DNA from: Glutamicibacter sp. B1
Lineage (GTDB): Bacteria; Actinomycetota; Actinomycetes; Actinomycetales; Micrococcaceae
Direction of reading: 5' to 3'
Length of the DNA stretch: 64,000 nucleotides
Assembly (NCBI RefSeq): GCF_039602135.1
Contig: NZ_CP125942.1
Span: 496,001-560,000, forward strand
The notes under the pieces are model-generated. The model saw only the letters and a program-made list of their open reading frames with translations. It was not told the origin of the DNA and did no database searches. The translations under genes and the position numbers were made by a program. This document shows, piece by piece, positions 3,880 to 17,599 of the stretch (position 1 is the first letter of the stretch; every line of letters begins with the position of its first letter).

Positions 3880-5082
3880 ATGAAACTGCGCAGTATCACC
3901 CTTGGCGTGGCAACTCTCTGCCTCGTTGCTGGAATTTCAGTCCCAACAGTCGCCGACGACAGTGAGACCTCCAAAGGCAACCCATTAGTTATTGGGCACC
4001 GCGGCGCTGCGGGCGTGGCACCAGAAAACACTTTGGAAGCAATCAGAACCGGAAGTCAGTCCGGCGCTGATTTCATTGAAATCGACGTACAGCTTTCAAA
4101 AGACGGGGTGCCGTTCATTTTCCACGATGGCACACCTGCTCGCACCACCAACGTTGAAGACATCTTTCCGGATCGTGCCAATGATCCGATTACCTCGTTC
4201 ACATGGGAAGAACTACAACAATTGGATGCAGGCTCATATTTCTCAGACAAGTTTATCGGGACCAAAATCCCGCGCTTTGACGATGTTCCTGGATCCTTGA
4301 CTGGCCAGACTGGCGTGTTCATTGAGATCAAAGATCCCGCAAAATCTCCAGGGGTCGAGCAGGTAGTCGCCGATGCGCTGGCCAACGAAGACCAATGGAA
4401 TTCCTTGCTCCGTGCGGGAAAGATCGAAGTTTTGGGTTTTGATGCCGCCTCCAATGAGCGTTTTGCCCAGTTGGCTCCCGACGTGCCTTTGCAACAACTT
4501 ACCGGAACCGTACCGTCTGCTCAGGTGCTTGAGCACTACGCCACTTACGCAGACGCTTTTGGTACCAGCTACCGCACCCTTGATGCTGCCGGAGCGAAAC
4601 GTGTGAAGGATGCGGGGTTGGACCTAGGCGTTTACACGGTCGATGCCACTGAAGTTGCAGACGAAGCATTGGCTTTAGGCGTTGAACGCATTACCGGCGA
4701 CTTTCCGCAGCAAATCGACCGTCACCTCGACGGGCAAAAGGTATTCCCTGCAAATAATGGTGTAGTGATTTCGGATGCCATCAACGACGTGCCAGGCAGC
4801 GACGTAACCCCGGAAAACGGCGAACACGTTATCTTGGAGAACACCGGACATCGCACCATTGACGTCAGTGGCTACTTGATTCGTGATGCTGCTAATAATA
4901 AGTTGCAGGTCGGCGACGGCTACGTCTTGAAGCCGGGTGAGAAACTACGCGTGTACCCCGGGCCAGGAACCAATAGCGATGATGCGTTCTACCTAGGCGG
5001 TGCAGCGATACTGAACAATGGGGGAGATTCACTGGCACTGTGGGATGCCAAGGGCAAGCTCGTAGACCTATTCTCCAACTAG
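3880..5082 (+). CDS. Secreted glycerophosphodiester phosphodiesterase with C-terminal lamin-tail domain
   Basis: Hydrolyses glycerophosphodiesters to glycerol-3-phosphate and an alcohol, outside the cell. The start at 3880 has AAAGGA at good spacing and gives a clear signal peptide (residues 1 to about 26, cleaved near VADD). Catalytic residues of the GDPD family are visible: GHRG (His40, Arg41), EID (Glu67, Asp69) and FHDG (His82). After the TIM-barrel domain, roughly residues 300-400 form a lamin-tail domain (NTGHRTIDVSGYLI, then a GGDSLALWD strand), a module often found in secreted enzymes. The fusion is complete with no frameshift. Confidence 0.9.
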   Translation: MKLRSITLGVATLCLVAGISVPTVADDSETSKGNPLVIGHRGAAGVAPENTLEAIRTGSQSGADFIEIDVQLSKDGVPFIFHDGTPARTTNVEDIFPDRANDPITSFTWEELQQLDAGSYFSDKFIGTKIPRFDDVPGSLTGQTGVFIEIKDPAKSPGVEQVVADALANEDQWNSLLRAGKIEVLGFDAASNERFAQLAPDVPLQQLTGTVPSAQVLEHYATYADAFGTSYRTLDAAGAKRVKDAGLDLGVYTVDATEVADEALALGVERITGDFPQQIDRHLDGQKVFPANNGVVISDAINDVPGSDVTPENGEHVILENTGHRTIDVSGYLIRDAANNKLQVGDGYVLKPGEKLRVYPGPGTNSDDAFYLGGAAILNNGGDSLALWDAKGKLVDLFSN

Positions 5083-5096
5083 CACTCAGGCAAAGT

Positions 5097-5131
5097 AAAA
5101 CCCCGTAGATTCGTTGAATCTACGGGGTTTT
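5097..5131. terminator. Bidirectional hairpin terminator
   Basis: 12-bp perfect stem (CCCCGTAGATTC with its complement, loop GTT) flanked by A-run and T-run. It can end both the glycerophosphodiesterase gene (+) and tRNA-Ser (-). Confidence 0.9.
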
Positions 5132-5133
5132 CT

Positions 5134-5224
5134 TGGCGGTGACGGTGGGATTTGAACCCACGGTACGGGGTTACCGTACACAACATTTCGAGTGTTGCAC
5201 CTTCGGCCGCTCGGACACGTCACC
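5134..5224 (-). tRNA. tRNA-Ser(CGA)
   Basis: Class II tRNA read on the minus strand. Acceptor GGTGACG pairs with CGTCACC, anticodon loop CTCGAAA gives CGA, the variable arm is long as expected for serine, and the T-arm reads GTTCAAAT. Discriminator G and an encoded CCA follow. A TATAGA/TAGAGT -10-like element lies just upstream (about 5233-5240). Its 3' end faces the AT-richer 1.7-5.1 kb stretch. Confidence 0.95.
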
Positions 5225-5318
5225 AGACCTGATAACTCTATACCGAACCTAAGGTGAATACAAAAACGAGAACCCAATAATCCGGCTGAAGTGGTTCGAA
5301 ACACACGAATTGACGGGT

Positions 5319-5795
5319 TTAGCCGCGTTTTGCCCGGAAAAATTGCCGCAAGAGCTCCGCGCATTCCTGTTCTTTCACCCTCGAATAGACTTCGACCCAG
5401 TGATTGAGTCGGGGTTCGCGAACAATGTCGAACACTGATCCGCAGGCTCCGGCCTTTTCATCCCACGCGCCGAAGACCAGCCGTGGAATTCTTGAAAGCA
5501 CGATCGCTCCGGCGCACATGGCACAGGGCTCAAGGGTCACCACCAGGGTGCAATCCTCTAGACGCCACCCGTCGCTTTCACCTCGTGCTTCCAGCGCGCG
5601 TACTGCATTGCGAATGGCCACGACTTCCGCGTGAGCGGTGGGGTCTTTGATCGCCTCGCGTTCATTGCGTCCGGTGGCAAGCACCTGACCGTCGGGGGAG
5701 AAGATCACCGCGCCGATGGGGACATCATCGGTGACTAGAGCCGCGCGTGCTTCACTCAGCGCGAGGTCCATCCAAGCATCGTATTCGTGCACCAT
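5319..5795 (-). CDS. tadA: tRNA adenosine(34) deaminase TadA
   Basis: Converts wobble A34 to inosine in tRNA-Arg(ACG). 158 residues with both halves of the zinc deaminase site: HAE at residues 55-57 (His ligand, catalytic Glu) and PCAMC at 90-94 (two Cys ligands). The length fits bacterial TadA. Two substrate tRNA-Arg(ACG) genes are in the same window at 26 kb. The start ATG has a TAGAGT -10-like element nine bases upstream, so the leader is at most a few bases. It is divergent from upp. Confidence 0.93.
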
Positions 5796-5906
5796 AGTGC
5801 TTTTACTCTACGTGCTTGGGCCTCATTCCTGTTTCTTTGGGCACATCATTATCGTTTATGAGCGGAAATTCGGGGTTTTCTATCGATTCGAGCATAGCGG
5901 TGCTGA

Positions 5907-5912
5907 TAGATT
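5907..5912 (+). promoter_or_regulatory. Extended -10 element, leaderless upp promoter
   Basis: TGA-TAGATT forms an extended -10, seven bases before the ATG at 5920. No Shine-Dalgarno is present, and an upstream in-frame extension does not resemble Upp. Confidence 0.5.
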
Positions 5913-5919
5913 TCTACTT

Positions 5920-6567
5920 ATGCGCGTACAGGTAGTCGACCACCCGCTGGTGGCACACAAGGTTTCGGTTCTTCGAGATAAGAACACCCCGTCTTCGATC
6001 TTCCGTCAGCTCACTGACGAACTGGTAACCCTGCTTGCTTACGAGGCAACCCGCGAGGTGAGAACCGAACGAGTTGAGGTTCAGACCCCGGTTGCTACCA
6101 CCGTTGGCACTGCTATTGCCAAGCCAACTCCGTTGGTTGTTCCTATCTTGCGCGCCGGGTTGGGCATGCTTGAAGGCATGACCCGTCTGGTGCCTACCGC
6201 TGAGGTCGGCTTCCTGGGTATGGCTCGCAATGAAGAAACCCTGGACATCATCACCTATGCCGACCGCGTGCCTAACGACCTGACCGGCCGACAGGTATTC
6301 GTGCTTGACCCGATGCTGGCTACCGGTGGAACCTTGGCTGAAGCCATTAAGTTCATTTTCGATCGTGGCGCCGAGTCCGTGACGTGCATCTGCCTGATCG
6401 CCGCCCCTGAGGGCGTGGCCCGCTTGGAAGAAATCCATGGGGACGACGATCGAGTACATGTTGTGCTCGCTTCGTTGGACGAGAAACTGAACGAAAAGTC
6501 GTACATCATTCCAGGTCTGGGCGATGCCGGTGACCGCCTGTACGGCGTCACCCCACCGATTGCCTAA
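5920..6567 (+). CDS. upp: Uracil phosphoribosyltransferase
   Basis: Pyrimidine salvage enzyme making UMP from uracil and PRPP. 215 residues from the ATG at 5920, the usual length. An N-terminal [20 protein letters not shown] block is typical, and the PRPP loop is DPMLATGGT. The C-terminal [13 protein letters not shown] uracil-binding segment is complete. The open frame extends upstream to 5716, but those codons do not look like Upp. It is divergent from tadA, and its message ends in the hairpin at 6585. Confidence 0.95.
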
Positions 6568-6584
6568 CCGCATCAAGCTTTAGC

Positions 6585-6618
6585 CCTCAGGCCACGATCA
6601 CTTGATCGTGGCCTGAGG
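6585..6618. terminator. Bidirectional terminator overlapping the end of a histidine kinase gene
   Basis: 16-bp perfect stem (6585-6600 with 6603-6618) and a 2-base loop. It ends upp on the plus strand. On the minus strand the hairpin contains the last codons and stop of the sensor kinase gene. Confidence 0.8.
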
Positions 6619-8115
6619 TGTTTCTGGCTCGGTTTCCTCATCCGCCAGTGGCAGACGAACCTCGAAGACCGTGTTGCCCGGTTCGGAGCGTACCGAAATG
6701 CTACCGCCGTGAGCTTCGACGATGCTCTTGGCGATCGGCAGGCCCAGCCCGGTGGTGCCATCGGATCCGGATCGAGCCTTATCGGCTCGGGTGAAGCGTT
6801 CGAACACCTTGGGGAGGAACTCAGGCGCGATGCCTTCGCCGGTGTCGTGCACTTCAAGTACTGCTTCGTCGGTGTCATCGTCCTGGTCAATGGTCACGGT
6901 GACGGTATTGCCCGCGGAGGTGTGCTTGCGCGCGTTGGCCAGCAAATTGGTGATGACTCGGCGTAGCGCGGCTGCGTCACCAAAGACCGTTGTTTGTTCA
7001 GCGAGGCATTCGAATTTCCAATGATGGTCGCTGGCGGTGAGCTTGAAATCTTCGGTGATATCGGCGGTGAGCATGCTCAGATCCAAGCTACTGCGCTTAA
7101 ACGAACTTTCTTCGTCCAAACGAGCCAACAGCAACAGATTCTCCACCAAGGTTCCCATGCGGCTACTTTGCTGAAGCACGCGGTCTACCGAGCGTTGGCC
7201 GTCTGGCGAGAAGTGCTCGGTGGCCGATAGCAATTCGGTGTAACCGCGAATTGAGGAGAGCGGGGTGCGCAATTCGTGCGAGGCATCGGCCACAAACTGG
7301 CGCATCTGGGCCTGCGACTTTTCGCGAGCGGTCAGCGCCGTGGAAACATTGCTAATCATGGCGTTCAGCGCATTGCCGACGTTGCCCACTTCGGTCCCGG
7401 GAACAGCATCGGCAGCTGGCACCCGCTGGGTCAGCGCGACCTTGCCTGAATCCAGATCCTCTTCTGCCACGGACGCCGCCACGGAGGCCACGCGCTTCAA
7501 GGAAGCTAGGGAACGGGAAATCAACCACGACCCAGCCAACCCGGCACCAGCGATCAAAATCAACGCGATAAATAGTGTCAGCCATGCCATCCCGCGCAGC
7601 GCCATGTCGGTGCTGTGTAGTGGCAATCCGACGATCAGGATGCCATTGGATCCAGAATCTTTGACCGCGACGAGGTAGTAGTCGCCGACCGTCAGGTGGG
7701 CGCGTACCGGGTGGAAATTATCGCTGTCCTGATGAACGTCGCTGAGCTCAAGATCTACCATCGGGATGGCATCTTCCTGGCTGAGCTGTTGCAATTCACC
7801 GGTGCGCTCATCAAGCACTCCGCCATTGAAGACGTACTTATCAACGAAGCGCGCGGTGAGCGTGCCCGCGGACTGCCCTGGTGCATCCAAGCGAGAGTTC
7901 ACCGCTGGCGCGCCCTGTGAGTAATTCAGCGCGCGCTCGGTCGTCAACCGCAACTGGCTGTTGAGCTGATCCATCAGGGTTTGGCGCATGCCCGCGTTGT
8001 AGAGCACACCCAACAAGACGGAGACAGCGGTCAACGAAGTCAGCAGGATCAACAGGAGTTTGCGCTGCAAGGAGTGGGGGGAACTGACCTTGGTACTAGG
8101 GGAGAAAAAACTCAT
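6598..8115 (-). CDS. Sensor histidine kinase (OmpR-family partner, TrcS/PrrB-like)
   Basis: 505-residue membrane sensor. It has a TM helix at about 18-40, an extracytoplasmic domain to about 175, TM2 at about 176-198, then HAMP. The HisKA box is ASHELRTPLSS (phospho-His near residue 280), the N box NLLANARKHT, G1 DTGEGI, and G2 GTTGLGLPIAK. All catalytic motifs are intact. It overlaps the response regulator by four bases (ATGA), so the two are one operon. The stimulus is unknown. The last few residues are encoded inside a terminator hairpin. Confidence 0.92.
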   Translation of the reverse strand: MSFFSPSTKVSSPHSLQRKLLLILLTSLTAVSVLLGVLYNAGMRQTLMDQLNSQLRLTTERALNYSQGAPAVNSRLDAPGQSAGTLTARFVDKYVFNGGVLDERTGELQQLSQEDAIPMVDLELSDVHQDSDNFHPVRAHLTVGDYYLVAVKDSGSNGILIVGLPLHSTDMALRGMAWLTLFIALILIAGAGLAGSWLISRSLASLKRVASVAASVAEEDLDSGKVALTQRVPAADAVPGTEVGNVGNALNAMISNVSTALTAREKSQAQMRQFVADASHELRTPLSSIRGYTELLSATEHFSPDGQRSVDRVLQQSSRMGTLVENLLLLARLDEESSFKRSSLDLSMLTADITEDFKLTASDHHWKFECLAEQTTVFGDAAALRRVITNLLANARKHTSAGNTVTVTIDQDDDTDEAVLEVHDTGEGIAPEFLPKVFERFTRADKARSGSDGTTGLGLPIAKSIVEAHGGSISVRSEPGNTVFEVRLPLADEETEPETPQATIK

Positions 8116-8852
8116 GCCGCCGGCTTCAGTACGTAGCCAACGCCACGTACGGTGTGGATCATTGGCTCTGCGTCAACGTCGATCTTCTTGCGCAGGTAGG
8201 AGATGTAAAGTTCGACGATATTTGCCTGGCCATCGAAGTCGTAGTGCCAGACGTTATCAAGGATCTGGGACTTGGAAACCACGCGACGAGCGTTGCTCAT
8301 CAAGTAGCTGAGCAGATCAAACTCGGTGGCGGTCAGCGAAATGTCACGGCCAGCACGGGAGACATCGTGGGAGTCCATGTTCAAGACCAAATCACCGACG
8401 ACCAGTTCGGCAGAGTCTGCTGCTGCGGCGCCCGAGCGCTCCACCAAACGGTGCAAGCGGATCAGCACCTCTTCGAGGCTAAATGGCTTGGCGACGTAGT
8501 CATCGGCGCCTGCGCCCAAACCTTCGATGCGATCTTCGACCGCGTCCTTGGCGGTGAGGAACAGTACGGGAATCTCGGGGAAGTGGGTGCGGACCTTGCG
8601 TAGCACTTCTGGGCCGTCAAAGCCGGGCAGCATCCAGTCCAAGACAAGAACATCTGGTGCCAGGTTACGTGCGGTGGCGACGGCTTCTGGACCATCGTGT
8701 GCGACGGTGGCTTCCCAGCCGAGCATGCGGGTTCCCATGGAGACTAGTTCGGCCAGCGATGGTTCGTCGTCGACTACGAGGACTTTAATGGGGGTGCCAT
8801 CAGGATGGGTGAGACGGGGCAATTGCGAAGGTGAAAACCGAGATTCATTCAT
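8112..8852 (-). CDS. OmpR/PhoB-family response regulator
   Basis: 246 residues. The receiver domain has the acidic pair VVDDE, phospho-acceptor Asp72 in VLDWMLPG, and the conserved lysine in FLTAKD. A winged-helix effector follows, ending in the usual IHTVRGVGYVL. The N-terminus has about 20 extra residues before the receiver. It is the first gene of the operon with the kinase at 6598-8115. AGGAG lies about 13 bases before the ATG, a rather long spacing. The sequence resembles the TrcR/PrrA type, but regulon and signal cannot be read from it. Confidence 0.92.
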   Translation of the reverse strand: MNESRFSPSQLPRLTHPDGTPIKVLVVDDEPSLAELVSMGTRMLGWEATVAHDGPEAVATARNLAPDVLVLDWMLPGFDGPEVLRKVRTHFPEIPVLFLTAKDAVEDRIEGLGAGADDYVAKPFSLEEVLIRLHRLVERSGAAAADSAELVVGDLVLNMDSHDVSRAGRDISLTATEFDLLSYLMSNARRVVSKSQILDNVWHYDFDGQANIVELYISYLRKKIDVDAEPMIHTVRGVGYVLKPAA

Positions 8853-9221
8853 GTTTAAAAGCGTCTCCTATTGCCATGGGGTAAGAATATGTTTTTGCTG
8901 TGCGGGAGCTATGACTGTATGTCGAGTTTATGCAGGAAAATTGCTGATGGATAGTGCTTAATTTGGTCAACTTTGCCGATCGGCGAATGATTGAAGTGTG
9001 GACAGCGTGTCGCCATGAATGCTTATACATCGCAATGAATGGACCAGTCGATGTGTTCTATTGGTGACTAGAGTATTGAACATATTGCTTAGTTAAGCGC
9101 TTAGATACCCTCGATATGGCTAACGTGGCGTGCATCACCTTTGAGCATTATTGTCTCACTATGTGGACATGCCCCTGGTTTGTTACTTGCAAGTTGACAA
9201 TGTTACGAGGAAACTAGAGGT

Positions 9222-9317
9222 GTGAGTACGGCGCAGAACAGCAAAAAGTATCCCGGCGGACAGCCGTGGCGTACCGATGCAAGTTGCAATCGAATGCTCG
9301 GCGTCAGCGAAAGATAA
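9222..9317 (+). CDS. Possible 31-residue leader ORF
   Basis: A GTG at 9222 opens a short frame ending in TAA at 9317, with GAGGAA nine bases upstream. Its product is basic and not recognised. It sits in the untranslated region before the winged-helix gene and could be a leader peptide or chance. Confidence 0.2.
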   Translation: MSTAQNSKKYPGGQPWRTDASCNRMLGVSER

Positions 9318-9324
9318 ATGGAAT

Positions 9325-9341
9325 TTACGAGTAATTCGTAA
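9325..9341. repeat. Palindrome in the winged-helix gene leader
   Basis: TTACGA and TCGTAA arms separated by five bases, about 130 bases before the ATG at 9471. It could be an operator; no family consensus is recognised. Confidence 0.3.
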
Positions 9342-9470
9342 TCGACATCTTGTCAGTCGCTGACGGGGAACCCAACTGCTGAACGTGGACGAAGGCCGCG
9401 AACAGCGCAAGCAAAACCCGAAGCACGAGCGCCAAACCACTTGGCCTTCGCACTAAAAGAGGAAAACATC

Positions 9471-10256
9471 ATGTCGGCTGGATCCGGATACGTCCACGTT
9501 TCAATTCGCAACGCGCAGAACCGCGCAGCTGCTGCACAGCGCCAGGCCACTGGCAACTATGCTCCAGCAGGTTATCGCCCACTGCGTGCAGTTTCTAACG
9601 TTCATGAAACTCGTGAAACAACGCATCAGTCGACCAACGCTCCGGTACAGGCAGCCGGTCAGGCCAGCGCAGATACCTCGGCACGAGGATTTGTCCTGTA
9701 TGTCGGACTAGACGAAGCCGCAGCGCAGGCACAGGGCACCTCGCTGGGCAAGCTGGCGACCCAGGTTCGCGCGTTCTTGGCCACCCTCTCACCACAAGCA
9801 CAGACCCATGCTGCTGTTGCACTGGCACCAACCAGTGCCCAGGGTGAACCCATTGACGTTGTCCGTCAGGCATTGGGTGACCCAACGGTTTCGCGTCGCC
9901 CACGCACCGAAGCTCGTCCGAGCACTCCACGTCCTTCGGGCGTGCTGATCGACCTGTCACGTCGAGAAGTGTACCTGGACGGTGAAACGCTGAACCTAAC
10001 CTTCAAGGAGTTCGAACTGCTGAACTTCCTCGTTGAAAACGGTACTCGCACCGTGGGTCGCGAAGAACTGCTTGAAAACCTGTGGCGCAATGCCGAAGAG
10101 GTTCCCAACGAGCGCACCATCGACGTGCATATCCGTCGCCTGCGCTCCAAGCTTGGGCGCTTGGCTAACACCGTGCGCACCGTGCGCGGTCAGGGTTACC
10201 GCTTCTATGAGCACCCAGAAGTTGTCGTTTGGGCAGCACCTGAATACTCGATCTAA
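9471..10256 (+). CDS. Winged-helix (PhoB-type) DNA-binding protein without receiver domain
   Basis: 261 residues. The C-terminal about 100 residues are an OmpR/PhoB winged helix: a GVLIDLSRREVYLDGE beta strand region, FKEFELLNFL, RTIDVHIRRLRSKLG recognition helix, and TVRGQGYRF wing. The N-terminal half is Ala/Gln-rich and low in complexity to about residue 65. A small unrecognised alpha/beta segment (residues about 70-120) follows. There is no phospho-acceptor Asp, so control must be by something other than a kinase. The ATG at 9471 has AGAGGAAA upstream. It is a single gene, ended by the hairpin at 10267. Confidence 0.85.
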   Translation: MSAGSGYVHVSIRNAQNRAAAAQRQATGNYAPAGYRPLRAVSNVHETRETTHQSTNAPVQAAGQASADTSARGFVLYVGLDEAAAQAQGTSLGKLATQVRAFLATLSPQAQTHAAVALAPTSAQGEPIDVVRQALGDPTVSRRPRTEARPSTPRPSGVLIDLSRREVYLDGETLNLTFKEFELLNFLVENGTRTVGREELLENLWRNAEEVPNERTIDVHIRRLRSKLGRLANTVRTVRGQGYRFYEHPEVVVWAAPEYSI

Positions 10257-10266
10257 GGTCGTTTCC

Positions 10267-10310
10267 CAGTAGCGGCGGGCAAACCATATTCGGTTTGCCC
10301 GCCGCTACTG
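10267..10310. terminator. Strong hairpin terminator
   Basis: 19-bp perfect stem with a 6-base loop, right after the winged-helix gene and just before the SixA-like gene. It is followed by TCTT on the plus strand. Confidence 0.85.
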
Positions 10311-10325
10311 TCTTAAGCTGAGAAT

Positions 10326-10853
10326 ATGAATACCATGCACACGCGTAAGTTGATCTTGATGCGCCATGCCAAGTCCGACTATCCATTGGGACTGGCCGAC
10401 CATGATCGCCCCTTGGCCGCGCGCGGAAACCGTGAGGCTCCCTCGGCTGGCGCGTGGCTCGTGGAGAACGATCTGATACCGGACTACATTCTGTGTTCGG
10501 ATGCGTTACGTGCACGTTCGACCTGCGCATGGGTGCTTTCTGAGCTGGGCGAAAAGGGGCCAACGCCCTATGTGGACTCCAGGATCTATGGTGCAGGGGT
10601 GTCTGAGCTGTGTTCCATTATCAACGAAGTGCCCGATACCGTCAGTACTTTGCTGGTCATTGGACACCAACCCATCCTTCAAGAACTCGCCTTGCGATTG
10701 GCATCGGTTGATTCGGATGAGGAAGCCGTCTACGAGTTGGCGATGAATTATCCGACGTTGGGGACTACCGTATTGGAAACCAACTATTCGTACTCGCATC
10801 TAGATGCGCGGGATGCCCGGGTGACGCATTTCGTAGCTCCCCGGCCCGAATGA
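10326..10853 (+). CDS. Histidine phosphatase family protein (SixA-like)
   Basis: 175 residues of the phosphoglycerate-mutase-like superfamily. LMRHAKSD near residue 12 is the RH(G/A) phospho-His motif in the SixA form, LRARSTCAW follows, and the second catalytic His is in VIGHQP. SixA proteins dephosphorylate phosphohistidine; the substrate here is unknown. TAAGCT six bases before the ATG suggests a leaderless message. It is a stand-alone gene. Confidence 0.88.
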   Translation: MNTMHTRKLILMRHAKSDYPLGLADHDRPLAARGNREAPSAGAWLVENDLIPDYILCSDALRARSTCAWVLSELGEKGPTPYVDSRIYGAGVSELCSIINEVPDTVSTLLVIGHQPILQELALRLASVDSDEEAVYELAMNYPTLGTTVLETNYSYSHLDARDARVTHFVAPRPE

Positions 10854-10918
10854 GAAAACTCTCACCGAATATTTTCTTATGCACTAGTCAAAGAGCATTA
10901 TTTGGATGATCTGGGGTT

Positions 10919-10996
10919 ATGAAAACCCTCTCATCTCTCCCACGGGAAGACACCAGCTTCAGTTCATCTTTGATTAACCATTACTCGTTTCACTGA
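10919..10996 (+). CDS. Possible 25-residue leader ORF before the P-loop NTPase
   Basis: An ATG at 10919 with GGGG just upstream runs 25 codons to TGA. The product is Ser-rich and unrecognised. A GTTGGC/GCCAAC hairpin follows at 11002-11019, so a short translated leader plus stem could regulate the operon. This is weak and could be chance. Confidence 0.2.
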   Translation: MKTLSSLPREDTSFSSSLINHYSFH

Positions 10997-11070
10997 ACAC
11001 TGTTGGCAGCACCGCCAACACCGTAGCACCGAAAAGTGCCACGGTTCATGTGTGAAAGAGGAATGGGACT

Positions 11071-12198
11071 ATGGCCGTCATCGCAGAAACACTTCCAGCT
11101 CAGAGCAGCGTTGCCCGTGATGAAGTGCACCAGGTTTTGGACGCACCACGTGCCCAGAGCATACGAGTCGCCTACACCACGCGTTTTGTGGCCGCAGAAG
11201 TCCAGCGCAATCCCCAAGACTTCCAGATCCTCTACCGGGCGTCAATGGTTCCTTCAGCAGGGGATGTGGTGATCGCGAAGGTCAGCGAACTAGGTAAGCA
11301 CACCCGTTTGCAATCCCCGGTATCCCGGCGCCAACTGATGTTTGTCGGACAAGAAATCATGGTCGCCTACGGCCATCGCTATGCACCGGACCAGTTCCTG
11401 GCCCACGTTCCCAAGGATTTGGGGCCATGCCAGTTGGTGGCCTCAGGCGGCGTGGCCAGTGAAGTGATCGAACAGCATGCCTCCATCGATCAGGCCACGC
11501 AACTAGAGCCAGTGGGTTTGCTGATGCGCCACGGTCAGGTAGTTAACCTCGCAGACTTTGCACCCCTAGACATCAACAACGAATCACCGCAGGCTGCACA
11601 ATCCGGAGCCGTGCACCCGCCGGTCATCGCAGTGTTGGGAACCTCGATGAACTCCGGAAAGTCCACCACCCTAGGGTGCCTCGTCAATGGGCTGGTCAAT
11701 GCAGGATTGAACGTTGCCGCGGGCAAGGCCACGGGAACCGGCGCCGGAAATGACCCGAACCTGTTCACCGATGCCGGGGCCTTCAGCGTCTGCGACTTCA
11801 CCGATTTCGGCTTCCCGACCACCTACCGTTTGGAGTACGAGACGGTGCGCTCGCTGCTGGTGGCGATGATCCGAGAGCAAAGTGCCACGGGTGCCGATGC
11901 GGTCGTCATCGAAATTGCCGACGGACTATTCCAGGGTGAAACCTCGCGGCTTCTTGCTGACCCGATCTTTACCCAGCATGTGGATCGGGTGCTCTTTAGC
12001 GCGCAGGACTCGTTAGGTGCACAGGCCGGCGAGCGTATTTTGCTAGAAGCAGGTGTGGATCTCGCTGCGGTCTGCGGGGTGGTGACCGCGTCACCATTAG
12101 CTACCCAGGAAGCTCAGGCTCAGCTGTCCACACCGGTGATCGGCACCTACGAGCTGTGCCGGGCCGAGGTGGCCGTCAGTCTGCTACCGGCCAAGTAA
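11071..12198 (+). CDS. Uncharacterised P-loop NTPase of dethiobiotin-synthetase/MobB-like type
   Basis: 375 residues. Residues 1 to about 170 form a beta-rich domain of unknown function. It is followed by an NTPase domain with Walker A GTSMNSGKST at 190-199, AGKATGTGAGND, DFTDFGFP, and a Walker-B-like VVIEIADG (Glu281, Asp284). The layout resembles the dethiobiotin synthetase/CobQ/MobB fold, but no biotin or cofactor gene is near. Shine-Dalgarno AAAGAGGA fits the ATG. Its TAA overlaps the next ATG (TAATG at 12196), so it is coupled to a degenerate ABC protein. The function is not recognised. Confidence 0.8.
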   Translation: MAVIAETLPAQSSVARDEVHQVLDAPRAQSIRVAYTTRFVAAEVQRNPQDFQILYRASMVPSAGDVVIAKVSELGKHTRLQSPVSRRQLMFVGQEIMVAYGHRYAPDQFLAHVPKDLGPCQLVASGGVASEVIEQHASIDQATQLEPVGLLMRHGQVVNLADFAPLDINNESPQAAQSGAVHPPVIAVLGTSMNSGKSTTLGCLVNGLVNAGLNVAAGKATGTGAGNDPNLFTDAGAFSVCDFTDFGFPTTYRLEYETVRSLLVAMIREQSATGADAVVIEIADGLFQGETSRLLADPIFTQHVDRVLFSAQDSLGAQAGERILLEAGVDLAAVCGVVTASPLATQEAQAQLSTPVIGTYELCRAEVAVSLLPAK

Positions 12199-13787
12199 TG
12201 TTGCCCCAGCTCTACGCTCCCGGGCGACGCAAGTTGCTGGCACAACTGGTCAGCCTTGGTATCACCGCGGGGTTGTTCTCCTTAGCCATTGGCTGGCTGA
12301 TCGGCCAGCTAGCTGGCGGTTTTAACCTCTGGCTAGCGCTGCGGGTGCTGGTATTGGTGGCCGGATTCTTTGTGGCGAAGTTTCTGGAACGGGTCCTGGC
12401 CGAGAAACTTGGCCAGAACTATGTGGCGGAATTACGGCGCGGGCTGGTGACCCATGCGCTGCTGAGCGAACGTGGACCATCGACCGGAATCACTATCGCG
12501 CGTTCCACCAATGATCTGTCCTCGATCCGCAATTGGATCGTCTTTGGAATGGTGCCATTAATGGCGGGCCTGCCGTTATTGCTGGTCAGCGGGGTGGGGC
12601 TGTTCGCGCTGCACCCCCTGCTGGCGGCAAGTTTGGGATTGACCCTGGCGCTAGAAGCGGTGTTTTTGTTCGGGCTAGCTGGTGGAACTTTTTCCAGTGC
12701 CAGGACTCTGCGCCGGCACCGAGGTAACTTGGCTGCCCGAATTGCGGACACGGTGGCGGCGAGGACCGCGATCTCTGCCGGTGGCGGGGTTCAGCGTGAG
12801 GTGGCGCGGGTCCAGAGCAGTGCGCAGAAGGTCGTCGACGCGTCAGTGCATCGGGCGCGCTATGCTGCGGCTCTGCGATCCTCGGCGTTGGCCGTGCCGC
12901 TGTTGGGCACGGCGCTGGTCGTCTCGGTGTGCCAGATGTTGGGGTTGCCGGGATCTGCGGTGGCCAGTGCCCTGACCTTGATGGGGATCTGCGCCGGGAG
13001 CCTGGGCGAATGGGGTAAAGCGGTAGAATACCGACAAAATTACAAGGCCGGACGCCGGATCATCGCACCTCTGCTAGCGCAGGAAGCACAATTTTCCCGG
13101 GCCGGGACACCGCTGGTCAGTACCAGGGATGCTAAGGAATTCATGGGGCAATTTTCGGCCGTGCGAATTCAGTTTCCAGTCGATGACTTCGGCCAGTTCC
13201 CGGTACTGCGGGCTCAGCCCGGTGAACGCATACACATCGTCGGGGCAGAGCGCCAGCGCACGAGGTTATTGACCGCGATCGCTACCGGAAGCCTGGGGAA
13301 TCTGGGTGCGAGCCACTACGGGGTGTGGGTTGCCGAGGGGCGCAGTGAGGATTTGCTGCCGACCACTCGACGCAAGGTGATCGGTGCGGCCTTGGAAAGT
13401 ATGGTCCCGGAACGTGGCACTCTTGCCCGGGCCCTACGGTATCGTCACCCCTCAGCTTCCGTGGAAAAAGCGTTGGACTTGGCCAAGAAGTGTGGGCTGG
13501 ATCTAGAAGCATTGCCGCAACGGGAAGCAACGCGGTTGCGGCGGGGCGGGGAGCCGTTGGAACCTGGCCAGCAGGCGGCACTGCTGGTGGCTCGCGCCCT
13601 GTTGCGTGAGCCACCGGTGCTCGTGCTCGATCAGCTCCTGACCCGGCTGCCACTCACCGGCTACCAGTATGTGGTGCAGCGGGTGAACAACTACCCGGGA
13701 GTGGTGATCTTTTCCGGGGCGCTGCCGGGGATCGAAGCGACTAGTTTGTGGTGCGAGGCCGGGTTGCCAGCAAACCATCAACCGTGA
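12198..13787 (+). CDS. ABC exporter-like membrane protein with degenerate ATPase domain
   Basis: 529 residues laid out as a type IV ABC exporter half: about six TM helices in residues 1-300, then a nucleotide-binding-domain remnant. Every ATPase motif is changed. Walker A is GAERQRTRLL (no GKS/T), the signature LSGGQ reads LEPGQ, Walker B PPVLVLDQ has Gln for the catalytic Glu, and the switch His is replaced by Gly (IFSGAL). Spacing and fold pattern are kept and the frame is intact, so this is a conserved inactive module, not a fresh pseudogene. It starts within the stop of the P-loop NTPase. It overlaps the TetR gene tail-to-tail by 47 bases. Confidence 0.8.
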   Translation: MLPQLYAPGRRKLLAQLVSLGITAGLFSLAIGWLIGQLAGGFNLWLALRVLVLVAGFFVAKFLERVLAEKLGQNYVAELRRGLVTHALLSERGPSTGITIARSTNDLSSIRNWIVFGMVPLMAGLPLLLVSGVGLFALHPLLAASLGLTLALEAVFLFGLAGGTFSSARTLRRHRGNLAARIADTVAARTAISAGGGVQREVARVQSSAQKVVDASVHRARYAAALRSSALAVPLLGTALVVSVCQMLGLPGSAVASALTLMGICAGSLGEWGKAVEYRQNYKAGRRIIAPLLAQEAQFSRAGTPLVSTRDAKEFMGQFSAVRIQFPVDDFGQFPVLRAQPGERIHIVGAERQRTRLLTAIATGSLGNLGASHYGVWVAEGRSEDLLPTTRRKVIGAALESMVPERGTLARALRYRHPSASVEKALDLAKKCGLDLEALPQREATRLRRGGEPLEPGQQAALLVARALLREPPVLVLDQLLTRLPLTGYQYVVQRVNNYPGVVIFSGALPGIEATSLWCEAGLPANHQP

Positions 13788-14349
13788 GCAGGATCGCGCG
13801 AACCACTTGCTCATGGGCCAGATCATCGCGCCGCGTACTACTCATCCGAGCGGTGAACAGGGCCGCACCGAAGATCGTGCTGGCCACCGGTAGTTTTTCG
13901 GCCTGATCAAGGTGCACCAGTCGATCGAGCACTTCGATGAGCAGGGCGGTGACCTGGCGGTGCAACGGGCTCTGCGCAAAGTCGCTGGACTTGTCCGATT
14001 GCAGCTGTTCCTGCATCCACAATTGGGCGAAGGACGGATAACCGGTGACAAACTCCATGGCGAACTCGATCATAGACTTCAGCGCCTGATAAGGATCATC
14101 GTCCTTGGCCAGTTGCGTTAGCTGATGCATGAGTTTGCCCGCACCGTATTCCAGAATCTGGCTGACCAGTTCGTCCTTGGAACCGAAGTTGTAGTACACG
14201 GTCCCCTTGGACACCCCTGCGGCAGCGGCAATCTGATCGACCGAGACAGCCTCGGGGGAACGCGAACCGAGCAACTCCATCGCGGCCTCAAAGAGCCGTT
14301 CCTTGGAATCGGTGGTGCGAACTCGACGACGAGCACCTGGAAGCATCAT
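13741..14349 (-). CDS. TetR-family transcriptional regulator
   Basis: 202 residues with a classical N-terminal helix-turn-helix (AAAGVSKGTVYYNFGSKDEL) after an SKERLFEAA helix. The C-terminal ligand domain is unclassified. It is the third gene of a minus-strand operon (ABC-like, YhgE, TetR): its ATG shares one base with the YhgE stop. Its likely operator is the perfect palindrome at 17609-17638 over the operon promoter, implying autoregulation. Its 3' end overlaps the ABC-exporter-like gene on the other strand. Confidence 0.9.
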   Translation of the reverse strand: MMLPGARRRVRTTDSKERLFEAAMELLGSRSPEAVSVDQIAAAAGVSKGTVYYNFGSKDELVSQILEYGAGKLMHQLTQLAKDDDPYQALKSMIEFAMEFVTGYPSFAQLWMQEQLQSDKSSDFAQSPLHRQVTALLIEVLDRLVHLDQAEKLPVASTIFGAALFTARMSSTRRDDLAHEQVVRAILLTVDGLLATRPRTTN

Positions 14350-16679
14350 TATTCCTTCAACTCCGGCTGCAGTGTTTTCAGGGTCCAGGTCTTGCCCTTA
14401 CGTACCGCAAGCATGCTCAGCAAGAGCCCGATCGCGGTGTAGATGAGCAAGGAGCCTGCGACCGCGGAGAGCACATTCAATTCCGCTCCGTACACCAGGT
14501 GACGTAGTCCGACGACCACATTACCCATCGGCAAGATCTGGTGCAGGAAGTGCAATGGCGCTGGCAGTGTCTCCCACGGGAAGGTACCGCCGGCGGTGAC
14601 CAGCTGTAGCACCATCAAGACGAGCACCACAAACTTGCCGGCAGTTCCTAGCAGGGCGAAGCAGCCTTGGATGAGGGCGCTGAAGCACAGGGCGGCGAGG
14701 ACCAGAAGGAACCATGCCATCCATGGGTGCGCGGTGTGTAGACCCAGTCCGAAGTGCACCACTGCGTAGAGCAAGCTGGTCTGGATCACGGCAATCGCGG
14801 CGAATGGTATCCAACCACCGAGCGAGATCTTCCAGTTGCTGCCGTTAGAGAGTAGCGCGCGCTTGGTAATGGGTCGCATTACCTGGGTGAGGATTAGTAC
14901 ACCGATAAAGGTCGCCAGCGTCATGAAGAATGGGGCTAGACCCTCACCATAGACCTGGACTTCAGACTGCTTGGTGTTCTCTACCGTCACCGGGTTACCG
15001 ATCACGTCGGAGAGCTCTTCACTGGTCTTCTTATCCGGGTTAGGAACCTGCTTGACGCCGTCATCCAAGCCCGTGGCCAGCTCGTTGGAGCCATCTTGGA
15101 GCTTGGTGGTACCGTCGGACAGATCCCCGACACCATCGGAAAGCTGGACCAAACCGCTGTGGAGCTGGTCGGCGCCGGTCACCAGAGAACCGGCTCCGGA
15201 ATCCAGTTTCTTGGCTCCCTCGGAGGCCTGGGTTGCACCGGTCAGTGCGGACTTCTGGCCTGCGGCCAACTGCTTGGCACCGTCGTGGGCGCTGTTGGCG
15301 CCGGTGGCAAGCTTCGCTGAGCCGTCAGCGGCCGAGGAAATTCCGTCAACGAGGCTTGGTACCGCAGCGTTCAGCGTCTTGGTGCCCTGGGCAAGGGTGC
15401 CCAGGCCGGTAGCGAGCTGTTCGTTACCATCGGCGACTTTGTCGGCACCATCCGAGAGCGTGTGCAGGTTATCTTGCAGTCCTGCAAGGCCGGTGTTGAC
15501 CTTGTCCACCTTGTTCTTCAGGGTGTTGCTTAGCGTCGAGTTCTCCACGCTGTCGCTGACCTTGGACTTGATGGTGTCTGCCTGCTCTTGGGTCAGCACT
15601 CCGTCGGTTACCAGCTTGTCCAGCTCGGCCTGCGTATCGGTTTTGACGTTCTGCAGTTGCTTGTCGGTTTCGTCCTGCAGCTCGTTGATCACCGAGATGG
15701 CGTCATCGGCGGTGTCGGAGAGCTTCTTGTTTCCATCGGCGACCTGACGTGCGCCGGTGGCCAACTGGTCGGCAGCGCTCTTGGCGCTCTGGGCGCCATC
15801 GTTGAGCTGTTTGACCGAGCTTGGCAGGGTCTTGGTTTTGGACTTCATGGTGCTCAAACCATCGCTGAGCGTATCGGCACCCGTGGCTAGCTCGCCGGTG
15901 CCATCGGCCAGAGAATTGCTGCCATCGAGCAGTTTCTTCTGGCCGGTGACCAACTGAGAAAGGCCACTGGAAAGTTCGCTGGTTCCGTCCTTAAGCTGGA
16001 CGGCACCGTCGGAAAGATCGCTGCTGCCATCAACAAGCTTGGTGGTGCCATCGGCCAGGGTCACGATGCCATCACCTAGGGTGATCGTGCCGTCGTAGAG
16101 CTGTTGTGCGCCGTCCGCGGCTTTGTCCATGGAGCTGTGAATGTCTACAAAGCCGGCGATCATCGCTGACGCGGTTTCGGTGCCGACCTGTTCGGAGACC
16201 GAAGTGCGCACCGAGGTGGTCAGGGTCCTTGCGAAGTTGGAGACCATGAAGTTATTCGCGTCATTGGTCAGCAGCTCAATATTGGCCTGGCTGGCATCTT
16301 TGAAGTCGCCGGGGGACAGCAGCGCAGCGGTGAAGTTATCGGGCAGAACCAGGGCGAAGGCGTATTTGCCGCTGGCCACCGCGTCGGCGGCTTCGTCTCT
16401 CGAATCGAGATGCGCCCAGCTGAAGGTCCCATCGTCTTCGAGGTTCTCAACGACATCGTCGGCGACACGGGTGAATTTGCCGTCCTTTTCCCCGCCGTCA
16501 TCGAGATTAACGACGGCCGCGGTGACCTTGTCCAAGTTCCCCTGAGGGTCCCAGTTGGCGTAGAGGTAGAGGGCACCATAAAGCAGGGGCACACAGGTCA
16601 CGGCAATGAGCGCCAGCTTTGGCAGGGTGCCACGGGTCATGCGCTTTAGCTCGGAGAGCGCAAGTTGCAAAGTGGTCAT
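14349..16679 (-). CDS. YhgE/Pip family membrane protein
   Basis: 776 residues. There is an N-terminal TM helix (about 22-42), then a long extracytoplasmic region dominated by seven-residue repeats of the L.DG type (for example LYDGTITLGDG, SDLSDGAVQLKDG) covering roughly residues 180-540 and predicted to coil. Five or six C-terminal TM helices of the ABC-2 type follow. YhgE/Pip proteins include a phage-infection protein and secretion-related proteins; the substrate is unknown. The start overlaps the upstream ABC-like gene by ATGA. The TetR partner suggests inducible efflux or envelope export. Confidence 0.88.
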   Translation of the reverse strand: MTTLQLALSELKRMTRGTLPKLALIAVTCVPLLYGALYLYANWDPQGNLDKVTAAVVNLDDGGEKDGKFTRVADDVVENLEDDGTFSWAHLDSRDEAADAVASGKYAFALVLPDNFTAALLSPGDFKDASQANIELLTNDANNFMVSNFARTLTTSVRTSVSEQVGTETASAMIAGFVDIHSSMDKAADGAQQLYDGTITLGDGIVTLADGTTKLVDGSSDLSDGAVQLKDGTSELSSGLSQLVTGQKKLLDGSNSLADGTGELATGADTLSDGLSTMKSKTKTLPSSVKQLNDGAQSAKSAADQLATGARQVADGNKKLSDTADDAISVINELQDETDKQLQNVKTDTQAELDKLVTDGVLTQEQADTIKSKVSDSVENSTLSNTLKNKVDKVNTGLAGLQDNLHTLSDGADKVADGNEQLATGLGTLAQGTKTLNAAVPSLVDGISSAADGSAKLATGANSAHDGAKQLAAGQKSALTGATQASEGAKKLDSGAGSLVTGADQLHSGLVQLSDGVGDLSDGTTKLQDGSNELATGLDDGVKQVPNPDKKTSEELSDVIGNPVTVENTKQSEVQVYGEGLAPFFMTLATFIGVLILTQVMRPITKRALLSNGSNWKISLGGWIPFAAIAVIQTSLLYAVVHFGLGLHTAHPWMAWFLLVLAALCFSALIQGCFALLGTAGKFVVLVLMVLQLVTAGGTFPWETLPAPLHFLHQILPMGNVVVGLRHLVYGAELNVLSAVAGSLLIYTAIGLLLSMLAVRKGKTWTLKTLQPELKE

Positions 16680-17599
16680 TCTTTTTCCTTCGCGTCGCTA
16701 TCCTCTGCGACAGTTGGTTCTGCGTCGCTGTGTTCGGCCGGTGTGGATTCTTGCTCCGTTGCCTCTTGCTCCGCTGCCTCTGAAACGTCTAGATCCAGTT
16801 CATCTTGAACAGATTCTTGCGACAAAACCTCAGTTTTATCGGGTTCTTCTAGTTCTGCAGGCGCTTCAGAATTTTCGAGCTCTTCTGGCTCTTCTAGTTC
16901 TTCGGGTTCTTCTGGCTCTTCAACTAGAGGTTCTTCGGAGATGAGCGCGGTGGCTTCTTCCGGCGATTCAAATTCTTCGTATTCGTTGGATCCGAGATAA
17001 GTAATCGGTCCATCCCACTCGTAAGGGGCGTTACTGACAATTGCGACGACCGCGAATGCGCGGTTCGAACCAGCAAATTCAAGCAGGAGATCCAGCCAGA
17101 CATCATCTTGCATGTCGTGGCGATCAGGAGAATCAAGGACGATAAGTTCGATGCGGGAGTCTTCTGCAGCCAATAAAAGTTGCAGTTCCAACCGTCGGGC
17201 AGGGTCTAGGGAATCTGCCCATTCTTTGGCCACATCATCGAACCCGTGCAGTGCCGTCCACTTCTTATTGCGTGGTTTTCTCCAGATCGGGCCCGGCAGA
17301 AGGGCGAGGTCTTCGGCGATGAGATCGCGGACCTTCATATGTGATTCAGGTTCGTTGACCTCTGGAGAATCCAGGAGGGCGGTGTGCTGGCGCAGGGTTT
17401 TCAGCGAGTCAGCGTGACCCCACGAGACGGTCCCCGCAGATGGTTTCATGCGCCCACTCAGGGCGAGGGCCATGGCGGTACGTGAGATTTGCGGGTCGGC
17501 CACCACAAGGTGTACCTCTCCGCGATTTACGTGAAGCGAGGTGGGGGGCACCAGTAAATCGTGGCGTCCCTTGACGGAAAGTGAGTCTGCGATAAGCAC
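16676..17599 (-). CDS. ABC-ATPase-like protein with lost catalytic motifs and acidic tail
   Basis: 307 residues. Residues 1-215 follow the ABC ATPase pattern (LHVNRGEVHLVV, then ALALSGRMKPSAGTVSWG), but Walker A reads ADPQISRTA (no GKS/T), the signature region reads LDPAR, and Walker B is LIVLDSPD with Ser for the catalytic Glu. The last about 90 residues are a very Glu/Pro-rich low-complexity tail. It is translationally coupled to the YhgE protein, so it is probably a structural or regulatory partner, not an ATPase. The start is a GTG placed at the predicted transcription start (leaderless). Confidence 0.75.
   Translation of the reverse strand: MLIADSLSVKGRHDLLVPPTSLHVNRGEVHLVVADPQISRTAMALALSGRMKPSAGTVSWGHADSLKTLRQHTALLDSPEVNEPESHMKVRDLIAEDLALLPGPIWRKPRNKKWTALHGFDDVAKEWADSLDPARRLELQLLLAAEDSRIELIVLDSPDRHDMQDDVWLDLLLEFAGSNRAFAVVAIVSNAPYEWDGPITYLGSNEYEEFESPEEATALISEEPLVEEPEEPEELEEPEELENSEAPAELEEPDKTEVLSQESVQDELDLDVSEAAEQEATEQESTPAEHSDAEPTVAEDSDAKEKE

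Follow-up and report, generated by a model that had tools for sequence, protein, structure and literature searches.

What does an ATP-binding cassette (ABC) exporter do once its ATP motor is gone? The question is raised by two overlapping open reading frames (ORFs), ORF1 and ORF2, in a 64,000-nucleotide stretch of Glutamicibacter sp. B1 (NZ_CP125942.1, positions 496,001 to 560,000, forward strand), which we call the window. The original prediction described an intact P-loop protein whose stop overlaps the start of an exporter-like protein with no frameshift, in which Walker A, the Gly pair of the signature, the catalytic Glu and the switch His have been lost, and every part of that description holds for the window (Table 1), including the open frame of the exporter gene. 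Structure predictions, made on ORF1 and ORF2 as single proteins, place ORF2 among ABC exporters by fold, with a six-helix transmembrane domain (TMD) fused to an ABC nucleotide-binding domain (NBD) fold, and Pfam matched it to ABC_membrane and ABC_tran, both sub-threshold. By its motifs ORF2 does not qualify as an ATP-driven pump: the Walker A Lys and glycines are absent, as are the signature, catalytic Glu and switch His; nor did it reach the CydC equivalog TIGR02868 (54.3 bits, cut-off 329.05). The source genome is 3.6 Mb, and its nearest named relatives are Glutamicibacter and Arthrobacter.

When the NBD motifs were aligned, the loss proved to be shared family-wide. The Walker A pattern occurs in 0 of 121 proteins of what we call the dead clade (the window's protein and the 120 listed of 133 matches to a search with that protein; one of them, P0004, is missing the Walker A stretch) versus all 117 from a search with an active sister (proteins of at least 520 residues, or 500 in the first part, with gene context seen for few). 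The LSxG[QE] signature was present in 2 of the 121 versus 117 of 117, while the D-E of Walker B persists in seven dead-clade proteins, and four still have His in the column of the switch. Because the 121 were found by searching with the dead protein, they are selected for likeness to it; the dead-pair ABCs of 77 named loci also include none with Walker A. Names in the set include Glutamicibacter, Paeniglutamicibacter, Arthrobacter, Janibacter, Georgenia, Promicromonospora, Corynebacterium and Brachybacterium, among others. Local decay or a sequencing error is ruled out by loss throughout the family together with the open frame. The original prediction had said that close homologues with intact motifs would point to local decay; intact-motif homologues do exist beside the P-loop gene, but they are a sister group and not close relatives, so the motor loss is old and shared.

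The two-gene unit that had been proposed, with a motorless ABC half and an intact P-loop protein, is supported across actinobacterial genomes, both by 80 named loci (the best 80 of 452 relatives with the P-loop gene) and by three genome samples. In 79 of the 80 the P-loop gene is followed directly by the ABC gene; the sole exception, in Tessaracoccus oleiagri (L128, 8725-10080), has a dead-clade P-loop gene and no ABC downstream. Among the 79, three loci are cut by a contig end (L069, L115 and L126) and L098, L114 and perhaps L122 are split over frames; judged by the first in-frame start near the stop, the genes overlap by 4 bases in 40 and by 1 base in three. The three samples, which share genomes and in which alignment queries scored the top 3 to 6 candidates per genome, agree. 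Of 58 relatives, 19 have the family ABC (E < 1e-60) and 20 have the P-loop gene, and all 19 with both have them adjacent. Of the 394 genomes of a class sample, 22 have the P-loop gene, 20 of them at E 1e-20 or lower, and 10 have the family ABC, scored at 189 bits or more (the next matches, at 120 bits or less, were taken as ordinary exporters), and all 10 adjoin the P-loop gene; the corresponding figures for an order sample of 297 genomes are 14 and 10, again with all 10 adjacent. Within the genus the pair is in 16 of 18 genomes, and G006 and G008 show neither gene. We did not see a family ABC without the P-loop gene in the relatives, class or order samples. The P-loop gene was found without the ABC in nine class-sample genomes of one genus and in G298, and in four order-sample genomes (G052 and G559, plus G493 and G462, where the match is partial or weak). 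Two loci have unusual arrangements: in Corynebacterium pollutisoli (L109, 7515-10020) two tandem P-loop genes precede a single ABC, and in G012 (contig C5, 317413-319957) both pair genes are split over two frames each, either through assembly error or as pseudogenes.

Clustering the neighbours of 95 loci (the 80 named, nine other pairs and six without the ABC) revealed no third conserved gene; only the P-loop gene, the ABC and their antisense shadow frames recur in most. A third conserved partner was accordingly rejected, the next commonest neighbours being a sensor kinase (30/95) and a response regulator (28/95) in the flanks, which we did not count as partners because they belong to abundant families.

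The same P-loop gene is followed directly, in eight genomes of the class, by an ABC that carries Walker A, LSxGQ, D-E and the switch His. A ninth sister pair, one of two pairs in Arthrobacter sp. AL12 (L101), keeps Walker A and D-E and may be partly degenerate, since its signature reads LSHSQ and Gln replaces the switch His; in this locus a dead pair (8845-11750, +) and the Walker-A-bearing pair (14017-17084, -) lie within 9 kb. A search with one active sister returned members named Nocardiopsis, Streptomonospora, Amycolatopsis and Pseudonocardiaceae, together with active exporters of a wider family, part of them bearing names from other phyla; the gene context of these was unseen. In trees built with the catalytic columns removed, the actinobacterial dead rows form one clade nested among active rows (SH-aLRT 100 with 39 rows; 100/100 with 28 rows), on a stem that is long in both trees (1.09 and 0.91).

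A P-loop homologue was also found on eight plasmid records, six of which we examined (two Tritonibacter records were left out). The gene following it on the Paracoccus albus and P. liaowanqingii plasmids is an ABC without Walker A, and in Sulfitobacter an ABC with GPNGSGKS, LSSGE, LLLLDEPD and ITHN; the Microvirga, P. marcusii (broken gene) and Priestia plasmids have no ABC beside it. No plasmid relatives of the active ABC P0294 were found at E 1e-60. The two Paracoccus ABCs group with that of Sulfitobacter (100/100), and the trio is sister to the actinobacterial dead clade (97/86). When the 30 dead rows are constrained to a single group, the likelihood drops by 59.5 log units (p-AU 3.85e-07) in an approximately unbiased (AU) test that was run after the tree had been seen and with a constrained group defined by motif. 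To account for the tree, the motor must have been lost twice, or lost once and regained in Sulfitobacter; a double loss is simpler. Motor loss in this family is old, lies inside an active family and, on the simpler count, happened a second time in Paracoccus.

What ORF2 still keeps was assessed with 40 representatives of the dead clade and with 30 and 33 from two active sets. Over the Walker A columns the dead clade has a mean conservation of 0.32 versus 0.83 and 0.90 in the active sets, whereas in the first cytosolic coupling region the mean is 0.78 versus 0.77 and 0.79, and at the end of the last helix 0.76 versus 0.67 and 0.66. Twelve near-invariant TMD residues are common to the three sets (E69, G72, Q73, R80, G97, R102, W113, G117, R172, E201, E277 and Y278), others, including N105, Q280, P291 and P453, are conserved in the dead clade and not in the active sets, and 30 ORF2 columns are invariant in 49 diverse sequences. 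Between close relatives ORF2 is under purifying selection: in the seven closest gene pairs that are distinct (dS 0.09-0.39), dN/dS was 0.09-0.37 over the whole of ORF2, 0.06-0.21 over the membrane domain and 0.14-0.46 over the NBD. Since the membrane-facing parts, the cytosolic loops and a folded, motif-free NBD have been kept, ORF2 probably still binds a ligand or ORF1.

For ORF1 the best folds were BioD enzymes, closely trailed by signal recognition particle (SRP) GTPases and CTP synthase, with the N-terminal part barely covered by the fold searches. Its fold is common to BioD, SRP GTPases, HypB and ApbC, a class known as SIMIBI, and is also that of the DUF1611 P-loop domain; structure 2obn carries the DUF1611 name, and 2g0t/TM0796 and DgcN belong there as well. 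ORF1 differs from the DUF1611 family (PF07755) in scoring under the Pfam gathering threshold (18.9 bits against 25), and a match to it at E 0.01 was present in 37 of 56 aligned ORF1 relatives. A PDB sequence search with ORF1 alone found no match at E 1, and neither did NCBIfam, BioD TIGR00347 included. ORF1 differs from BioD in having no such match, in carrying an extra N-terminal part and in residing in a genome without BioA over the cut-off (best 304.6 bits against 405). That ORF1 is the genome's BioD is unlikely because BioA is also missing; bioB is present, and TIGR00347 has no match over the cut-off in the source genome (9 of 14 control genomes match). Such a gene complement looks as if external dethiobiotin were used.

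Across 30 dead-partnered ORF1 rows and 17 others (nine with Walker-A-bearing partners, five solo and three alphaproteobacterial; L128, L202 and L207 were left out) 50 positions are conserved, among them the Walker A residues M193, N194, G196 and K197, versus three that are specific to dead partners (S198, G218 and F246). The conserved positions of ORF1 are thus the same with an active, a dead or an absent partner, and since ORF1 is alike whatever its partner, an enzyme is a likelier reading of it than a recruited replacement motor. On these counts, and given its solo occurrence and BioD-like best folds, the suggestion in the original prediction that ORF1 may supply the NTP-driven step is not supported. 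The P-loop family is large, with 1631 homologues at E 0.001 among 7995 candidates scored.

We favour, with moderate confidence and from sequence and predicted structure, the reading that ORF2 would be an ATP-independent membrane partner of an enzyme, ORF1. The two genes would form one functional unit, in which ORF1 would work in the cytosol as a nucleotide-dependent SIMIBI enzyme of BioD/DUF1611-like type; its P-loop, Lys219 and Glu281 are conserved, and so is its N-terminal part, to which the substrate may bind. ORF2 would be its dedicated membrane partner. The ancestral ORF2 would have been a functional ABC exporter that probably transported the product or the substrate of ORF1, as the sister pairs still appear to do; in the window's lineage, and separately in Paracoccus, the ATP motifs would then have been lost and the membrane domain, cytosolic loops and folded NBD kept. 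Because the motifs are gone and yet these parts remain, we read the present ORF2 as an ATP-independent pseudo-transporter that presumably lacks ATPase activity. It would most likely serve either as a membrane scaffold or receptor that contacts and holds ORF1 together with a hydrophobic or membrane-bound ligand, or as a passive conduit through which the enzyme would pull the ligand by consuming it. We put forward tentatively, as somewhat unlikely, a wider proposal that this exporter family gave up ATP at least twice to become the nucleotide-free membrane subunit of a SIMIBI-class enzyme, whose reaction, rather than an ABC motor, would pull or present the ligand.

Several observations weigh against the favoured reading. 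ORF2 is dispensable for ORF1, because ORF1 occurs without the ABC in several lineages and in L128. Foldseek puts SRP GTPases first for ORF1, the SIMIBI folds include mechanical and targeting GTPases, and the sequence match between ORF1 and BioD is weak (E 0.015). In six of the seven closest pairs the NBD is less constrained than the membrane domain, and some deeper pairs have dN/dS near 1, which we tentatively ascribe to low or saturated dS and did not use.

The rival that fares best would make ORF1 a replacement motor: it would be a soluble NTPase that docks on the motorless exporter and powers the transport cycle, as in the ArsA/ArsB arsenite pump with its soluble motor ATPase on a membrane protein. 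It would explain why the genes overlap, why the P-loop is kept in 104 of the 104 P-loop proteins of the loci scanned and why ORF2 retains conserved cytosolic coupling regions and a folded NBD, and mechanical NTPases are known among SIMIBI folds. However, the conserved positions of ORF1 stay the same whether its partner is active, dead or absent, ORF1 occurs alone, and the ABC of the sister pairs has a motor of its own. That ORF1 drives ORF2 is possible and not favoured, and we consider this scheme unlikely.

We think it about as unlikely that ORF2 is instead a membrane sensor reporting a ligand to ORF1, with ORF1 acting as a switch that makes no product. A dead exporter fold could well bind ligand without transport, and two-component genes are found in the flanks at the frequencies given above, immediately ahead of the P-loop gene in L193, a locus of Nocardiopsis type (4314-6853, +), and on the opposite strand in the window (6598-8852, -). 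These families are nevertheless abundant, the clustering merges unlike members, and most loci have none; ORF1 moreover keeps the BioD-like Lys and a Glu.

Quite improbable, in our view, is that ORF2 is a relic decaying slowly and carried along by its overlap with ORF1. The higher dN/dS of the NBD in most close pairs, the long stem of the dead clade, the absence of the ABC from L128 and the solo lineages, and the genes split over frames in L098, L114, perhaps L122 and, for both members of the pair, G012 would all fit slow decay, but the overall dN/dS of the seven closest pairs, the 30 invariant columns and the residues conserved specifically in the dead clade (N105, Q280, P291 and P453 among them) speak against it. 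Very improbable is that ORF2 is the degenerate half of an ATP-driven transporter whose active half-exporter is unlinked, for although the source genome has other ABC exporters and exporters with one degenerate site are well known, a half without Walker A and signature would spoil both composite sites as these are described in a review (PMC7756269), and no second ABC gene recurs beside the pair.

Table 1. Features of the gene pair (positions in the window)
Feature	Position	Strand	Description
ORF1	11071..12198	+	375-residue SIMIBI-class P-loop protein (assigned by fold)
ORF1 domains			beta-rich N-terminal part, about residues 18-155; BioD/DUF1611-like P-loop domain, about residues 180-375
ORF1 Walker A GTSMNSGKST	11638..11667	+	residues 190-199, intact
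TAATG	12196..12200	+	ORF1 stop (TAA) overlapping ORF2 start (ATG)
ORF2	12198..13787	+	529-residue ABC-exporter fold, full length, NBD degenerate
ORF2 TMD	12198..13097	+	residues 1-300; motifs including R111 common to both active sets
ORF2 NBD fold	13155..13784	+	residues 320-529
ORF2 Walker A site	13242..13262	+	replaced by GAERQRT
ORF2 signature site	13557..13571	+	replaced by LEPGQ
ORF2 Walker B Asp	13629..13634	+	next residue Gln, not catalytic Glu
ORF2 switch (H-loop) strand	13698..13721	+	reads GVVIFSGA, without His

What the ligand might be we can suggest from other loci, where all hints were rated weak and none adjoins the window's pair. A CapA-like (PGA_cap) gene follows two deep Walker-A-bearing pairs, in L101 (12899-14017) and L198 (5980-7083); in L198 (1750-7083) the order is P-loop gene, active ABC, CapA-like gene. 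The source genome's single CapA match sits away from the pair. Three alphaproteobacterial pairs have an alpha/beta hydrolase-like gene directly upstream, two by annotation with Pfam below cut-off and the third (L205) by sequence reading. On a Priestia megaterium plasmid (L207, 2728-10490) a distant P-loop relative is clustered with two ATP-grasp ligases, thiamine-diphosphate enzymes and a phosphoenolpyruvate mutase, a gene set that looks like a phosphonate pathway.

An anti-phage defence system was rejected because the window's proteins gave no PADLOC match (at E 0.01, 0 families for either ORF); ten PADLOC ATPase models do match the active sister L158, and we took these matches as generic. 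No RNA family reached its gathering score within 9000-15000, and promoter and terminator scans gave no excess over shuffles. Elsewhere in the window, a second ABC ATPase-like gene (16676-17599, -) reads as having no Walker A, with VADPQISRTAM at the site, and adjoins genes for a YhgE/Pip membrane protein and a TetR regulator (14349-16679 and 13741-14349, both -); it has homologues in 19 of 38 genomes, namely G019 and all 18 of the genus, among them the two that show no pair.

The closest comparison for the dead pair is with the active sister pairs, which likewise have the P-loop gene directly upstream and share the membrane-domain motifs, but whose ABC keeps Walker A, LSxGQ, D-E and the switch His in eight of nine. 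A dead clade spread over many genera beside an active sister with the same partner gene amounts to a natural before-and-after test of an exporter fold without ATP, and the pair offers a first lead on a large P-loop family lacking characterised members. ArsA/ArsB resembles ORF1/ORF2 in setting a soluble P-loop ATPase beside a membrane protein, although that membrane protein is of another kind. Our searches of the open-licence PMC literature (for DUF1611, DgcN, Walker-A-less, degenerate, inactive or pseudo ABC proteins, and SIMIBI with dethiobiotin synthetase and ABC transporter) showed nothing on such a pair among the papers listed; the parts are of known kinds, an exporter fold and a SIMIBI P-loop protein, and in that literature we found neither this combination nor a motor lost completely and more than once. 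Type IV ABC exporters carry at least one canonical ATP site (PMC7756269). ORF2 has the TMD and NBD fold of such exporters (MsbA, Sav1866, TmrAB, TM287/288 and CydDC) and no canonical ATP site. ABC transporters are defined by their ATP motor, and the degenerate ones treated in that review (TM287/288, TAP, CFTR and Pdr5) keep one working site. Like ORF2, these proteins have been retained despite the loss of catalytic residues; one of their two sites is degenerate (PMC7756269), whereas a homodimer of ORF2 would have two degenerate sites.
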